Positions 6,534 through 14,478 of a stretch of 64,000 bases of DNA are shown here, one piece after another. The notes below the pieces were generated by a model. The model was not told where the DNA came from, did not search any database, and saw only the letters and a list, made by a program, of their open reading frames with translations. How positions within the stretch are numbered: the stretch's first letter is position 1; each line of letters opens with the position of its first letter. Made by a program: the position numbers and the translations under genes. Origin of the DNA: a virus; IMG/VR virus record IMGVR_UViG_3300027806_000042, positions 1 through 64,000 of that record. One strand, 5' to 3'.

Positions 6534-7316
6534 ATGACTAATCTTGTATCTATCGGTGATAGTTTCTTGTATCAAGGAGACTGTATTAAAGTTTTGGATG
6601 CCATCAAATCTAATTATGTTGATCTGGTTTTAACTGATCCTCCTTATGGGACAACGGCCTGTAAATGGGACTCGGTTATATCTATGGAATGTATGTGGCC
6701 TCGTATTATGCGAGCCTCGAAGCCCAATGCGGCTTTTGTTTTCACGGCTAGTCAACCGTTCTCAAGTATCTTGGGCGCCTCAAATATTTCAATGCTTCAG
6801 TATTCTTGGTATTGGCAGAAGTCCCGCGCTACGGGGCATTTGAACGCAAAACGACGCCCGCTGAAAAACGTTGAAGATATTTTGGTTTTTTACGGGGACC
6901 AACCAACCTACAATCCTCAAGGACTAACTAAGATTCAGAAGGTTGTGAAGAATAGCAAAAGCCACATGGCGCGTGGGGTTACTACTGATTCAACCAGCAC
7001 CGTAACGGGCGGCATTACCCGCGAAGAATACACCCAAGAATACACAAACTACCCTCGTCAAATCTTAGAATTTCCGTCCGAAGGTTTCACCGTTCACCCC
7101 ACTCAAAAGCCTGTGGCCCTGATGGAGTACCTAATTCGCACCTACACCAATGAAGGCGATACAATCCTAGACTTCACAATGGGTTCTGGAACCACGGGGG
7201 TCGCCTGCGTGAATACCGGGCGCCGGTTTGTCGGGGTTGAGAAAGACCCGTATTATTTCCAGATTGCCGTGGATAGGATCACTAAGGCATATGCAATCAA
7301 TCCCACGTTGATATAA
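6534..7316 (+). CDS. DNA methyltransferase, N4-cytosine/N6-adenine type, 260 aa
   Basis: Transfers a methyl group from S-adenosylmethionine to exocyclic amino groups of DNA bases. The catalytic TDPPYG (residues 34-39) comes before the AdoMet-binding FTMGSGTTG (214-222), the order of beta-class enzymes. The VHPTQKP motif sits before the latter, as usual. No restriction endonuclease is nearby, so it is a solitary enzyme that could protect phage DNA from host restriction or regulate genes. Recognition sequence unknown. It has its own strong promoter and is less GC-rich than its neighbours, which may indicate recent acquisition. Confidence 0.9.
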   Translation: MTNLVSIGDSFLYQGDCIKVLDAIKSNYVDLVLTDPPYGTTACKWDSVISMECMWPRIMRASKPNAAFVFTASQPFSSILGASNISMLQYSWYWQKSRATGHLNAKRRPLKNVEDILVFYGDQPTYNPQGLTKIQKVVKNSKSHMARGVTTDSTSTVTGGITREEYTQEYTNYPRQILEFPSEGFTVHPTQKPVALMEYLIRTYTNEGDTILDFTMGSGTTGVACVNTGRRFVGVEKDPYYFQIAVDRITKAYAINPTLI

Positions 7317-7370
7317 CAGGCTGGCGCCTAAAAGAATATAAGCATCCCTAAAAAATGTGGAAATTATCTA

Positions 7371-7400
7371 TTGACATTGGCTAGGGGATGATGATATAAG
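7371..7400 (+). promoter_or_regulatory. sigma70 promoter upstream of the 7477 gene
   Basis: Perfect TTGACA at 7371-7376 and TATAAG at 7395-7400, spacer 18 bp. The transcript would begin with a roughly 70-nt leader rich in cgc motifs (7408-7462), resembling the array downstream of the gene. Confidence 0.75.
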
Positions 7401-7476
7401 ATGGCGTCAGCGCTACTCTACGCACCACATCACGGCGCAGCGCTCCGCACGGCAACACAACGCAAGGAGATAACCA

Positions 7477-8070
7477 ATGCAAGCATCAGTAGCACACCTG
7501 ACCATCACTGGCTTGACGCCTTACTCCCAATCCCGTCAGCATGACGAAGCTAAGCTGGACGGTGAAAACCACGAAGCCTATGATGTTCGTACATGGCGCT
7601 CTAAACTATCTGTCTCAGATCGTGATGGCGCCCCTACTGTAGTAATCCCTGCACATGGCCTGCATCAGTCCATTGCATCAGCCGCTAAGTATTCCAAGCG
7701 TCAGATTCCAGGCCAAGGCAAGGCAACTTGGACCGCCAAGTTTCTCTCTGGTATTACGCTCATGGAGGACCCTGCCCTGTTTATTGATCCTGCCAGTGTT
7801 GGTAGTGTGACAATCTCCGCTAACGCGGATGGCGTCCGGGGTTCAGGCAAGCGCGTACCGCGCCGGTTTCCAATTCTCCCGCAATGGGAAACCACCTTTG
7901 ATGTTTATATCCTCGATCCCATCATTACCCAGGAAGTGTTCAAGGAAATGGTGGAGATTGCCGGTATGTTTATTGGCATTGGGCGCTTCCGCCCTGAAAA
8001 GGGTGGCACCAATGGCCGTTTCCGTATTGCGAAGCTGGTTTGGGAAGATAACCGCAAACTGGCTGCGTAA
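7477..8070 (+). CDS. unassigned phage protein with Gly-rich C-terminal motif, 197 aa
   Basis: I do not recognise this family with certainty. The start has a good AAGGAG site at 7463-7468. The N-terminal strand VAHLTITGLTPYSQS is followed by charged residues. Near the C-terminus (166-182) is GIGRFRPEKGG-NGRF, a glycine-rich, arginine-containing loop recalling loops of RNA-binding RAMP/ferredoxin-like folds; this is a resemblance, not an assignment. It has its own strong promoter and is flanked on both sides by C-rich cgc-type repeat DNA, with three conserved hairpins downstream, so nucleic-acid binding is a reasonable guess. Confidence 0.7.
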   Translation: MQASVAHLTITGLTPYSQSRQHDEAKLDGENHEAYDVRTWRSKLSVSDRDGAPTVVIPAHGLHQSIASAAKYSKRQIPGQGKATWTAKFLSGITLMEDPALFIDPASVGSVTISANADGVRGSGKRVPRRFPILPQWETTFDVYILDPIITQEVFKEMVEIAGMFIGIGRFRPEKGGTNGRFRIAKLVWEDNRKLAA

Positions 8071-8168
8071 TCCCCGCCACTCGTTGCAACGCTCCACTGC
8101 ACCGCGCGCCACAGCGCATTGCTAGGCTCCGCTTCGCTATGCTCCTCTTCGCCACTCAACGCAACGCA

Positions 8169-8216
8169 CCTTTGGGCAACCCGAAACCGCTTATGCGGCT
8201 TTGGGATGCCGAAGGG
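8169..8216 (+). repeat. array hairpin A
   Basis: Long imperfect stem: outer CCTTT/GAAGG-type pairs, GGCA with TGCC, CCC with GGG, AAA with TTT, then CCGC-ttat-GCGG. It is followed by TATC, as in copy B. Confidence 0.7.
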
Positions 8217-8299
8217 TATCTACCACGCTACACGACTCGGCGCTCCGCCGCGCTCCGCACCTCTACGCGGCGCTTCGCATCGCCACGCAACTCAACGCA

Positions 8300-8346
8300 C
8301 CTTTCTGTATCCCCAAGCAATCCTATTGTTTTGGGATACCGAAGGG
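8300..8346 (+). repeat. array hairpin B
   Basis: Same architecture as copy A, 131 bp later: CCTTTC with GAAGGG, GTATCCC with GGGATAC, CAAT-cct-ATTG inner stem. Several base pairs differ from copy A by compensatory double changes. Confidence 0.7.
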
Positions 8347-8420
8347 TATCAACTGCCGCCCCGCAGCTCCACGCTACGCCCAGCGACTCATCACGCCGCT
8401 TCGCACCGCAACTCAACGCT

Positions 8421-8456
8421 CCGACTTTCCCGCCGCTTCGGCGCCGGGATGGCCGG
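8421..8456 (+). repeat. array hairpin C (degenerate copy)
   Basis: Shorter version after the third CAACTCAACGC: CCG with CGG, TCCC with GGGA, CGC-ttcg-GCG with a stable TTCG-type loop. It keeps the position, though not the sequence, of copies A and B. Confidence 0.55.
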
Positions 8457-8536
8457 AAAACCATTCAACCACGCGTCACCTCTTGACGCTTCGCTCCGCA
8501 CCGCGTCGCAACTCAACGCATTAAAAGGAAAGACAA

Positions 8537-9037
8537 ATGATCCAAACAGAACTAACCGCTGATGCTCGCACATTGGCAGACCTTCTAATTGCCTGCCCCG
8601 TAGAAGGCATTGTAACGCTGGCGCTGGCCTCTCAGGCTATTGGGCGCGACATTACCAAGTGTCGCCATGTCCTAGCCTCTGCCCGCCGCGTAGCACTCCG
8701 GGAAGAAGGTGTAGTGTTCACCACTGAACGCTCCGCAGGCTTGCGCCGTATCTCAGCAGAACGGGCTACGGAGGTCATTGGGCCGGTTGCCAGGAAGCAT
8801 ATACGCAAGACCGCAGGCCGGGCTAAGAAGGCTCTGATAGCCGCCACAGAAGGCAGTAATGACCTTTCACCGGACGCCCAGCGCCGCCGTGCGGCGGAAA
8901 TCAGCGCCCTTGGTTTGATGGAACACATTGCTCGTGACACTATCAATCGCCCGGCAAACGATGCCCCGACGAAGCCAACCCCTGTTGGCATTACAGCCCA
9001 GGCTTTGCTTCAGCGCATCAAAGGAGACATGACATGA
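8537..9037 (+). CDS. hypothetical protein with predicted N-terminal HTH, 166 aa
   Basis: AAAGGAAAG precedes the start. The N-terminal part (DLLIACPVEGIVTLALASQAIGRDI) has the helical spacing of a winged helix-turn-helix. The middle is Lys/Arg-rich (RKHIRKTAGRAKKAL), consistent with nucleic-acid binding, and the C-terminal half is Ala/Arg-rich. Specific role unknown; it overlaps the next gene by 4 bp. Confidence 0.65.
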   Translation: MIQTELTADARTLADLLIACPVEGIVTLALASQAIGRDITKCRHVLASARRVALREEGVVFTTERSAGLRRISAERATEVIGPVARKHIRKTAGRAKKALIAATEGSNDLSPDAQRRRAAEISALGLMEHIARDTINRPANDAPTKPTPVGITAQALLQRIKGDMT

Positions 9038-9396
9038 ACCTTCAAGAAGGGAAATACTACCGAGCGCGGTGTGGTCGGATTTATGGACCGCTGGTTGCTG
9101 GCACGGATATTAGCGCGCCGTTCTTCTGCCAGATCTCAAAAGAGAGTTGGCACAGTAAGGGGAACTATTATTACAACGGCGCGGAATCAAACTATGATCT
9201 AATCTCAGAGGTTAACCTTATCGTGGTTGACCCCTTCAAGGACGTGATTAACCAGGGCGCCCCACCGAAGGTGGATAGGGTAGAAATCGCTTCTCGTATT
9301 CTTCCTCGTCTAGCCTATAATTTTGCTCCTACATCAGCAGCAAAACAGGCCCTTCAATATGCAGATGCCTTTATTAAGGAGATTGGAAATGATTGA
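9034..9396 (+). CDS. phage protein, paralogue of the 9760 gene, 120 aa
   Basis: The N-terminal pattern EGKYYRARCGRIYGP, followed by an aromatic-rich stretch and SNYDLISEV, matches the product at 9760-10104 (AGKYYRTRGGDVVGP, NCDMDLVSEV). The repeated Y-Y-R-R-G-GP and D-L-SEV motifs define a small beta-rich domain seen in many alphaproteobacterial phages, function unknown. The C-terminal halves differ. Confidence 0.7.
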   Translation: MNLQEGKYYRARCGRIYGPLVAGTDISAPFFCQISKESWHSKGNYYYNGAESNYDLISEVNLIVVDPFKDVINQGAPPKVDRVEIASRILPRLAYNFAPTSAAKQALQYADAFIKEIGND

Positions 9397-9757
9397 CTGG
9401 GATAAGGAAGTAATAACCAACACTGGTCAGACGGTGGTTTGCCTTGACCGGAATTTTAAAAGCTACTATGGCGCGGTAACATTGTTTAAGGTTCTGCCCA
9501 AACCCCATTTATCCTCAACGGGCTATGAATTTATCGGGCTTTACAGACCGCTTGTTGAACGGGTGACTACAATAAATGGGGATGCAGTAGGTTACACCAT
9601 CCGCAACAAGCCCGTCATTGTAGAGAAGTGGATCATCCTTTGGAGGGGTTTTCCTAGCATGTTTTATTATGAAACCGAGGAAGAAGCCAATTATTCGGCA
9701 AGCATCTCGGTAAGAACCGATCTTGTGAAGGTAATGAAGGTGACATGGGAGGAATGA
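9389..9757 (+). CDS. hypothetical protein, 122 aa
   Basis: Start taken at ATG 9389, overlapping the previous stop by 8 bp; earlier in-frame codons would sit inside the neighbour. Beta-strand-rich, with a motif ALYxP-like GLYRPLVERVTTINGDAVGY and an aromatic C-terminal half. It separates the two paralogous genes at 9034 and 9760. No known domain. Confidence 0.65.
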   Translation: MIDWDKEVITNTGQTVVCLDRNFKSYYGAVTLFKVLPKPHLSSTGYEFIGLYRPLVERVTTINGDAVGYTIRNKPVIVEKWIILWRGFPSMFYYETEEEANYSASISVRTDLVKVMKVTWEE

Positions 9758-9759
9758 AC

Positions 9760-10104
9760 ATGAAGATAGAAGCAGGGAAATACTACCGCACTAGGGGCGG
9801 CGATGTTGTTGGGCCGATGCGAAGGCGTGGTCTGACTACCTTTCCTTGGGGGGACGGGACTGATTGCTGGACTGACAACGGCAGATTTAGTGAAGATGTA
9901 AATAACTGCGACATGGACCTTGTTAGCGAGGTCTATATCAGCGACACGCCGGTGGACACCACCAAGACCGCAAGGGATGAATTGGTGGAGAAGGCTGCGC
10001 TGGCAATCCTGAAAGCGCACTACGCAAACCCAGGAACAACGGGTTATGGCATGGATTGGATTTGGGACGCGGCAGAACATTTTGTGGAGGCGCGGAAGAA
10101 ATGA
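9760..10104 (+). CDS. phage protein, paralogue of the 9034 gene, 114 aa
   Basis: ATG 9760 is preferred because GGGAGG ends about 7 bases upstream and because it aligns with the paralogue's start; ATG codons at 9745 and 9754 are alternatives. It shares the KYYR-R-G-GP and DL-SEV motifs with the 9034 product. The C-terminal half (ELVEKAALAILKAHYANPG) is helical. Function unknown. Confidence 0.7.
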   Translation: MKIEAGKYYRTRGGDVVGPMRRRGLTTFPWGDGTDCWTDNGRFSEDVNNCDMDLVSEVYISDTPVDTTKTARDELVEKAALAILKAHYANPGTTGYGMDWIWDAAEHFVEARKK

Positions 10105-12712: not shown

Positions 12713-12894
12713 TGGACTGGCAACCGATTGAAACAGCGCCAAAGGATGGCTCCGCTATTCTGATTTGGGATGAAACTCTCACATACGAAATTGCCTATCG
12801 CCATCGCGCTAAGTGGCGCTACGGACCAAAAGGCTACTTATGCGAGCCCACCCACTGGATGCCCCTTCCCGCACCACCGGAGGTGAAGCCATGA
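12712..12894 (+). CDS. DUF551-like protein, 60 aa
   Basis: The sequence WQPIETAPKDGSAILIWDE near the N-terminus and PTHWMPLPAPPE near the C-terminus match the DUF551 pattern (W-PIETAPKDG ... W-PLP-PP), a small phage domain of unknown function. It begins one base into the previous stop and overlaps the next gene by 4 bp. Confidence 0.75.
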   Translation: MDWQPIETAPKDGSAILIWDETLTYEIAYRHRAKWRYGPKGYLCEPTHWMPLPAPPEVKP

Positions 12895-13541
12895 CCGAGC
12901 GCCCCATCATATTCAGCGCCGAAATGGTCCGCGCCATTCTTGCCGGCCGCAAGACGCAAACGCGGCGGGTAATGAAGCTGACATCGCTCGGTCATATCAA
13001 AGCGCCCATAATGTATGGACGCCACAAACCAGACAACCCCAGAGCGCTAGCTGCCTGCCCCTACGGCGCCCCAGGCGACACGCTTTGGGTGCGGGAGGCA
13101 GTCGCGCATGGCGAAGGGCTGAAGTATCACGTCGCCTATAAGGCCGATAGCCAGTGTGGTGCGTGGGGATGGGATGGCGACGGGAATCCGTTGTTCTCCT
13201 CGCATGGGCACGTCTTAGAGGGCGATGCTGGCCGCGCCGTTGGCAATTACGGCATGCACCGATATGGCAAAAGGTGGACACCCTCGATCCACATGCCGCG
13301 CTGGGCATCGCGCATCACGCTCCGCATCACGGATGTTCGGGTGGAGCGGTTGCAGGATATTAGCGAGGATGATGCGCGGGCAGAGGGGTGTGAGCCGGTC
13401 GGCTGGATTGATGAAACTGACGTGGGCATGAGCAGCTATCGTGAAGGCTTTACTCGCCTTTGGAACACCATCAACGGCGTCGGCGCATGGGAAGCAAACC
13501 CCTGGGTTTGGGTCATCGAATTCGAAAGGGTGAAGCCATGA
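12891..13541 (+). CDS. phage protein of the RPIxFSxxMVRAIL family, copy 1, 216 aa
   Basis: The N-terminus RPIIFSAEMVRAILAGRKTQTRRVMK is typical of a large phage family often labelled 'morphogenetic' or ASCH-like, with no proven function. Further conserved parts are CPYGAPGDTLWVREA, HMPRWASRITLRITDVRVERLQDI and a C-terminal NPWVWVIEFERV. It is a paralogue of the gene at 13771, with a 77-bp identical DNA block (13281-13357). Confidence 0.75.
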   Translation: MTERPIIFSAEMVRAILAGRKTQTRRVMKLTSLGHIKAPIMYGRHKPDNPRALAACPYGAPGDTLWVREAVAHGEGLKYHVAYKADSQCGAWGWDGDGNPLFSSHGHVLEGDAGRAVGNYGMHRYGKRWTPSIHMPRWASRITLRITDVRVERLQDISEDDARAEGCEPVGWIDETDVGMSSYREGFTRLWNTINGVGAWEANPWVWVIEFERVKP

Positions 13542-13774
13542 ACGTTGAAGTGCAACCAAAAGACATCATGTCTGCCTGCGAAGCCACTTATCAGGCCGGA
13601 TTGCGTGATGGTGTGCGATATTCGGCTGATGTTTTGGAAGCCTGCAAAAAGGAAATGATAAAAAGGCACGGCGAAACGGTGGTCACTGAATTTTGCGATA
13701 TTGTAAAACGAGCGCTTCAAGATCAAGCGAGCCTCATTCACGCGAAACTGGAAGCGGAGGACCGCCAGCCATGA
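13538..13774 (+). CDS. small hypothetical protein, 78 aa
   Basis: Sits between the two paralogues, joined to both by ATGA-type overlaps. Helical, with a Cys-rich first half (MSACEATYQAGLRDG, VLEACKKEM). No family recognised. The pair arrangement suggests a duplicated two-gene unit. Confidence 0.55.
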   Translation: MNVEVQPKDIMSACEATYQAGLRDGVRYSADVLEACKKEMIKRHGETVVTEFCDIVKRALQDQASLIHAKLEAEDRQP

Positions 13775-14478
13775 GCGAGCGCCCTATTCCTTTTCGCGAT
13801 TGGGAAGTCCGCGCCATCTTGAAGGGCGACAAGACGCTAACGCGGCGGGTGATGAAGCCGCAGCCAGCGCCATTTGTCCAATCAACACCAGACCGACACC
13901 CCACTACCCGCACCGATCCGTACATTGATGCGTACTGCGGAGAGAGGAAAACGCCAGAGAACCCGCGTGGCATGAGCCGTGATTGGCACTGGTGGACAGC
14001 GGACAACCGACTCGGGCGGCTTGTAGCTCGCTGCCCCTACGGCGCCCCCGGCGACCTGCTTTGGGTGCGGGAGACTTGGGCGCAATACCCAATCGAATTG
14101 AACCCTGAACCATGTGACGCTTGGTATAAAGCAACCAGCAATGGGCCACCGCCGCCCTTCAAATGGCGCCCCTCGATCCACATGCCGCGCTGGGCATCGC
14201 GCATCACGCTCCGCATCACGGATGTTCGGGTGGAGCGGTTGCAGGACATCGAAGGCCAGCATCCAAGCGAAAGCGACGCAATAGCTGAAGGCGTCCGCGC
14301 CATCCACCACGGCGACGGTGACTATTACTACAGCGCGTTTCGGGACGTGCCGCATCCAAAGAATTGGAGTGACCCAGCGGATGCTTTTCGTGAAGTCTGG
14401 AACAGCATCAACGGCGCCGGCGCCTGGGAAGCAAACCCCTGGGTGTGGGTGATCGCATTCGAAAGGGTAAAGCCATGA
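13771..14478 (+). CDS. phage protein of the RPIxFSxxMVRAIL family, copy 2, 235 aa
   Basis: Same motifs as copy 1: RPIPFRDWEVRAILKGDKTLTRRVMK, CPYGAPGDLLWVRE, the identical HMPRWASRITLRITDV region (14170-14246) and NPWVWVIAFERV. The N-terminal half is extended and more diverged than the C-terminal half. This implies tandem duplication with later gene conversion, or selection on the central block. Confidence 0.75.
   Translation: MSERPIPFRDWEVRAILKGDKTLTRRVMKPQPAPFVQSTPDRHPTTRTDPYIDAYCGERKTPENPRGMSRDWHWWTADNRLGRLVARCPYGAPGDLLWVRETWAQYPIELNPEPCDAWYKATSNGPPPPFKWRPSIHMPRWASRITLRITDVRVERLQDIEGQHPSESDAIAEGVRAIHHGDGDYYYSAFRDVPHPKNWSDPADAFREVWNSINGAGAWEANPWVWVIAFERVKP

Follow-up and report, generated by a model that had tools for sequence, protein, structure and literature searches.

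The closest described counterpart of the locus discussed here is the Viral Interference Programmable Repeat (VIPR) system, reported for phage SUSP1 and the type II clade (PMC13142463; bioRxiv 2026.04.26.720920). According to the available text of that report, a VIPR locus comprises a Vipr gene, an accessory gene, and intergenic vrRNAs, each made of 9-16 GGY/NN repeats and ending in a structured 3' tail, and the NN pairs are read on double-stranded DNA with one skipped base (PMC13142463). The fixed triplet is given there as GGY "or a related consensus" (fig. S17; PMC13142463). VIPR has been proposed as a CRISPR relative of ancestor-like character, and experimental knowledge of it is confined to very few phages. 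In the SUSP1 locus, which we fetched, the published GGY tracts lie around vipr, in a layout that is also that of the window, i.e., the whole stretch of DNA analysed here (64.0 kb of a 67.7-kb virus record). Results of our analysis indicate that the window locus very probably belongs to a CNC-NN class of VIPR-type systems, which differs from the described GGY class and may or may not fall under the "related consensus" of the preprint.

The window locus shares with VIPR a small RAMP gene, intergenic tracts of period 5 with about 9-16 units and hypervariable NN positions, a structured 3' tail (at three of the five tracts), a small second gene, and its presence in a phage; in relatives of the CNC class, candidate targets with one skipped base, located at the wobble base, are a further common trait. 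Unlike in SUSP1, as described in the available text, the fixed triplet is CNC (CGC here; CAC, CTC, and CGA in relatives) instead of GGY, the G-loop of the protein carries R or Q instead of D, the tail is a long imperfect hairpin, which is absent at tracts T0 and T4, and the Vipr protein is only distantly related to its SUSP1 counterpart. The RAMP fold with a glycine-rich loop also likens the window Vipr to the Cas7/Csm3 backbone of Class 1 CRISPR. However, the window has neither CRISPR repeats and spacers nor adjacent cas genes, its period is 5 nt versus 6 nt, and it has a single small protein. No CRISPR-type identical repeats with unique spacers were found in positions 7400-8700, and no Rfam CRISPR repeat scored above the threshold in positions 7000-9200 (a sub-threshold match to DR26 lies elsewhere).

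A previous, sequence-only reading of the 466-nt gap between the gene at 7477-8070 and the gene at 8537-9037 had concentrated on three hairpins and had described the spacers between them as C-rich and G-poor. The spacers are in fact a degenerate 5-nt repeat, CNC-NN, mostly CGC-NN, which forms five tracts flanking the gene 7477-8070; they are C-rich, but only partly G-poor, since G predominates in the middle of the fixed triplet. This strict period (lag-5 identity of 0.43 in the spacers vs. 0.26 for the window), as well as the tract upstream of gene 7477, had been overlooked. All five tracts are on the plus strand. Tract T0 (7411-7465) lies upstream of vipr, has the putative guide TA TA AC AT GG AG TC AC with constant AA AA AA, and is directly followed by AGGAG and a start codon, with no hairpin. 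The variable parts of three putative vrRNAs, assigned from the sequence pattern, run into hairpins A, B, and C, respectively: T1 (8075-8167; CA GT AA TC TG CG GC AG AT TA TC TT TA TC TT CA), T2 (8221-8298; CA TA GA GG TC CG TC AC TA GG TT AT CA), and T3 (8357-8419; CC AG CA TA CC GA AT GC TT AC), each with constant AA AA. Tract T4 (8467-8519; CA GT CT GA TT TC AC GT, constant AA AA) precedes gene B, and AAAAGGA and a start codon, again with no hairpin, are on its 3' side. The constant AA-AA 3' end of all five tracts is CAACTCAACGC or close to it, and off-consensus repeats, e.g., TGC, GGC, and AGC, occur in T1 and T3. From this pattern we infer that the tracts act as RNA. Three overlapping open reading frames in the tract region were considered as coding and judged to be a side effect, because CNC-NN repeats with G or A as the middle base are free of stop codons in all forward frames. 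No other such tracts were detected in the 64-kb window, where the sole other signal was a period-15 pentapeptide-repeat open reading frame (1-159). A separate open reading frame at 1454-2050, which has no Pfam match, includes an extended repeat region rich in Ala, Trp, Asp, and Arg (AARAAGAAARAADAA...WAAWAADAAGAA).

The gene at 7477-8070 (plus strand, 197 aa) had been listed as an unassigned gene beside the array; the adjacency stands, and the gene can now be assigned as encoding the protein partner of the array, a Vipr homologue, which is a small RAMP/Cas7-like protein with an RRM core and a G-loop (GIGRFRP, with the R170 codon at 7984-7986). In a search of the PDB with the A1 profile, the only convincing solved protein was SUSP1 Vipr (36pp, E 4.2e-5), and an hhalign comparison with SUSP1 Vipr gave a probability of 92 and an E value of 6e-7. 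The AlphaFold (AF2) model has a pLDDT of 87, and its top Foldseek matches in the PDB are Csm3/Cas7-type RAMP subunits (E 1e-6). Searches of Pfam, NCBIfam, and PADLOC assigned the protein to no family, PHROG 4652 is a family of unknown function, and tblastn with the window Vipr gave no match in 50,697 phage records, SUSP1 included. We identified homologues, 51-88% identical to it, in 42 viral loci, in nearly all of which tracts surround the gene and mostly with gene B behind it; the window open reading frame is intact and 87-88% identical to Vipr of the loci L002, L033, and L042. Gene B (8537-9037, plus strand, 166 aa), a putative accessory gene (vap), lies downstream of vipr in most relatives and shows a weak profile similarity to the gene following SUSP1 vipr (hhalign E 5e-4, probability 31). 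Among 84,980 species genomes, five contain relatives, some of them on short MAG contigs, and all five are alphaproteobacterial; therefore, an alphaproteobacterial host is likely. An N6/N4 DNA methyltransferase gene (6534-7316) is directly upstream of the vipr locus. Further downstream, the small genes at 9034-9396 and 9745-10104 are about 30% identical over their first 60 residues, and the adjacent genes at 12813-13541 (no Pfam match) and 13693-14478 share near-identical segments (HMPRWASRITLRITDVRVERLQDI) and are apparently tandem paralogues.

The three hairpins of the earlier reading were confirmed at their places within one base, as was the motif preceding each of them at intervals of about 120-130 bp: CAACGCAACGC/CAACTCAACGC motifs are located 5' of each hairpin, with a measured spacing of 121-131 bp. 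Hairpin A (8168-8217, plus strand) has a predicted RNA folding energy of -33.0 kcal/mol (z -6.4), hairpin B (8299-8347, plus strand) of -25.9 kcal/mol (z -6.1), and hairpin C (8420-8457, plus strand) of -21.6 kcal/mol (z -2.4, with 2 of 200 shuffles as good), while the stretches between them show no folding relative to shuffles (z about 0). Both compensatory changes reported between A and B are present (C8177-G8208 vs. T8308-A8338, and CCGC/GCGG vs. CAAT/ATTG). Homologous tails were identified in four other phages or genomes (L033, L042, a Roseomonas MAG, L281, and Ancylobacter, L285), and a sequence similar to hairpin C in L002, L033, and L281. The proposed selection on structure gains from the covariation beyond the two copies: in a set of only six sequences, 7 of 20 pairs are changed on both sides and 92.9% of cells pair, a level reached by 0 of 500 column shuffles. 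An alternative 3' hairpin, GATGCC/GGYATC, pairs in 6/6 tails with little covariation. Relatives that keep the flanking genes and lack the hairpins, which had been thought to speak against the array, do exist (L002, L003, and L005), yet the tracts are kept there, and the missing hairpins are accounted for by the variable length of the array. Across the class, a stable fold is absent after most tracts, as it is after two of the five window tracts; therefore, the tail is not universal. Each hairpin very probably closes a guide-RNA-like unit at its 3' end and is a minor part of a larger array. The option of a structured RNA was correct as to a structured RNA array but incomplete, the informative part being the period-5 tract, of which the hairpin is the 3' tail.

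The other options once considered for the hairpins are less compatible with these data. Like REP/BIME elements, they are extragenic and occur in series; unlike such elements, they do not recur elsewhere in the record, their 3' arm has no exact match in viral contigs, and they form part of longer tract units. A Rho-loading site or a plain protein-binding array would leave the array unexplained. The view that the set is not a CRISPR, a terminator, or coding agrees with the absence of CRISPR repeats, with the terminator scoring, which identified no terminator among the three hairpins, and with the nature of the overlapping reading frames. In the loci L039, L040, and L284, the intergenic region between genes A and B reaches a length of about 930 nt and contains five or six distinct hairpins spaced about 130 nt apart, irregular tracts, and a short open reading frame starting with MT(T/I)VAQ. 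In the intergenics of L006-L015 and L028, a repeated CAACGATT(T/C)GTTTG motif follows the tracts and possibly represents a different tail class.

When viral contigs were scanned blindly for (CGCNN)x8, a DNA pattern used with no protein information, 120 loci were retrieved, of which 84 contain a Vipr homologue, and the analogous (CACNN)x8 scan gave 45 of 112; none of the 14 control loci fetched by unrelated patterns contained one. Among the loci with no homologue, many consist of simple pentamer repeats or have their tract at the end of a contig. In the homologue-bearing loci of both scans pooled, the median distance from tract to vipr is 119 nt, and 1267 tract matches are on the same strand as vipr versus 31 on the opposite strand only. 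This polarity bears on the possibility that the tracts are a DNA-level repeat, such as a replication origin, partition, or packaging site, whose duplex is bound by Vipr or the gene B product. The periodicity of the tracts at the DNA level, 5 bp and 10 bp, and their tight linkage to one gene would suit such a site, but the strand following the gene, the compensatory changes in the tails, which point to RNA, the RAMP fold, and the match to VIPR make it extremely improbable. In L043 (4719-4819), a GTG-type tract (CAC on the opposite strand) lies upstream of vipr, where a divergently transcribed guide is possible.

The letter statistics fit a VIPR-type guide. In 4692 Vipr-linked repeat units, the information per position is 1.60 (C), 0.68 (middle), 1.71 (C), 0.05 (N), and 0.02 (N) bits; the outer positions are C in 94-96% of units, a conservation partly built in by selecting the tracts by these positions, which does not apply to the randomness of NN, and at the middle position lineages differ in having G, A, or T. 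Between the window and its nearest relatives, with letters taken by position and not by pattern, NN identity is 0.22-0.33, which is about chance, while CNC is largely kept. Random NN together with kept CNC meets the need of a guide, unlike that of a plain binding site.

To read the NN pairs, 337 guides from relatives were compared with 2.5 Mb of related phage DNA with the tracts masked, and the top four matches were all at a skip of one base. Five of the 13 guides of the locus L105 match its sister contig L066, with skip-1 scores of 23, 18, 16, 14, and 12, while at other skips the scores are at most 12. In shuffles of this pair, a score of 16 was never obtained (0 of 500), and scores three to five taken jointly lie above all shuffles; as L066 was chosen for holding the first matches, the top two scores are not independent of that choice, unlike the following three. 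One guide reads Y-T-x-H-P-S-G-V-E-C-I in DUF3310 genes, with 22 of 24 letters matching in L164 and 18 of 24 in L066, and the skipped base is the codon wobble position. Another guide matches an SNF2-type helicase gene (26/28 letters). In a filtered class-wide test, four guides scored at least 18 at skip 1 versus 0-1 at other skips and 0-1 per shuffle, although one shuffle scored 21 and the skip-1 excess is small, as would be expected if most targets are absent from the database. The one-base-skip rule appears to hold in CNC-class relatives, the support coming from few pairs, mainly the guides of L105 against L066.

These matches also weigh on the idea that the tracts are autoregulatory mRNA sites, at which the RAMP protein would coat the leaders of its own operon (T0 and T4) and control translation, with the hairpins separating the segments and no guide function. 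It would account for the location of the tracts on the coding strand, for the RBS and start codon that directly follow 193 of the 453 class tracts (about 43%), and for the lack of start and stop codons in any forward frame of CNC-NN with a G or A middle. On the other hand, the NN letters are near random, yet match genes of rival phages with a one-base skip, and arrays reach up to 11 tracts located away from starts (L021), so we consider it very unlikely as a sole function; autoregulation at T0 and T4 may coexist with a guide function.

Searches with the guides of the window itself were less productive. Their exact cores gave none or only chance-like matches in 2.9 million viral contigs: the T2 core was not found, the T3 core occurs in five contigs (two independent sites) with mismatching flanks and the skipped base off the wobble position, and was judged a chance match, as were the T1 core matches. 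With up to three mismatches, the guides tried had no target in 32 related phage records, nor had T1 in five alphaproteobacterial genomes or T1 and T2 in 250 genomes of the Roseomonas MAG family, and no targets lie inside the window. A degenerate system, in which the vipr locus is kept and the window guides have no extant target, would be in line with these results and with the off-consensus repeats of T1 and T3. We regard this as highly improbable, since all five tracts preserve the repeat phase and the constant 3' end and the vipr reading frame is intact.

Under the favoured VIPR-type interpretation, which draws in part on the SUSP1 experiments, the window tracts would be transcribed and processed into guide RNAs, three of them hairpin-tailed and two being tract-only leaders. 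Vipr, the small RAMP protein, would assemble on one RNA in many copies, one protomer per 5-nt repeat, each gripping the CNC triplet, possibly by contact of R170 with its middle base, and exposing the two N letters. All NN pairs of a guide would jointly base-pair with double-stranded DNA, with one base, usually at the codon wobble position, skipped between them, and the binding may block the transcription of rival phages or related elements, the presumed targets.

The fixed triplet differs between lineages (CGC in 61, CAC in 32, CTC in 1, and CGA in 1, near-duplicates removed), and residue 170 of the G-loop is the most informative alignment column separating CGC from CAC. It is Arg in all 60 CGC-type proteins covering the position, while the CAC-type proteins have Gln (18), Arg (12), or Ala (2); for L043, the presence of Gln led us to predict CAC-type repeats in advance of reading the tracts. 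Asp is found at this position in SUSP1 and in two loci with Vipr homologues and GGC tracts, L090 and L134, which are SUSP1-like systems within this dataset. The tree implies at least eight changes of the triplet and at least eight of residue 170; in the five supported independent pairs, the two changed jointly or the residue was static, never in the opposite sense, and a tree-corrected sign test on these five pairs was not significant. A strict code of Arg for G and Gln for A was rejected, as 12 CAC-type proteins keep Arg. Residue 170 covaries with the triplet, not strictly, and as a lead from sequence comparison it may set triplet specificity. A broader proposal, which we put forward tentatively and with some doubt, is that of a large, so far undescribed VIPR class in which repeated triplet switches (CGC, CAC, CTC, and CGA), together with residue 170 (Arg for a G middle, Gln for an A middle, and Asp in GGY), form a lock-and-key code separating coexisting systems.

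Taken with more than a hundred relatives, the window locus indicates that a change of the fixed triplet leaves the reading rule in place. The decoded guides of the relatives point to SNF2-type helicase and DUF3310 genes as likely phage targets. With residue 170 as a possible setter of triplet specificity, the recognition of the guide by the protein becomes directly testable.
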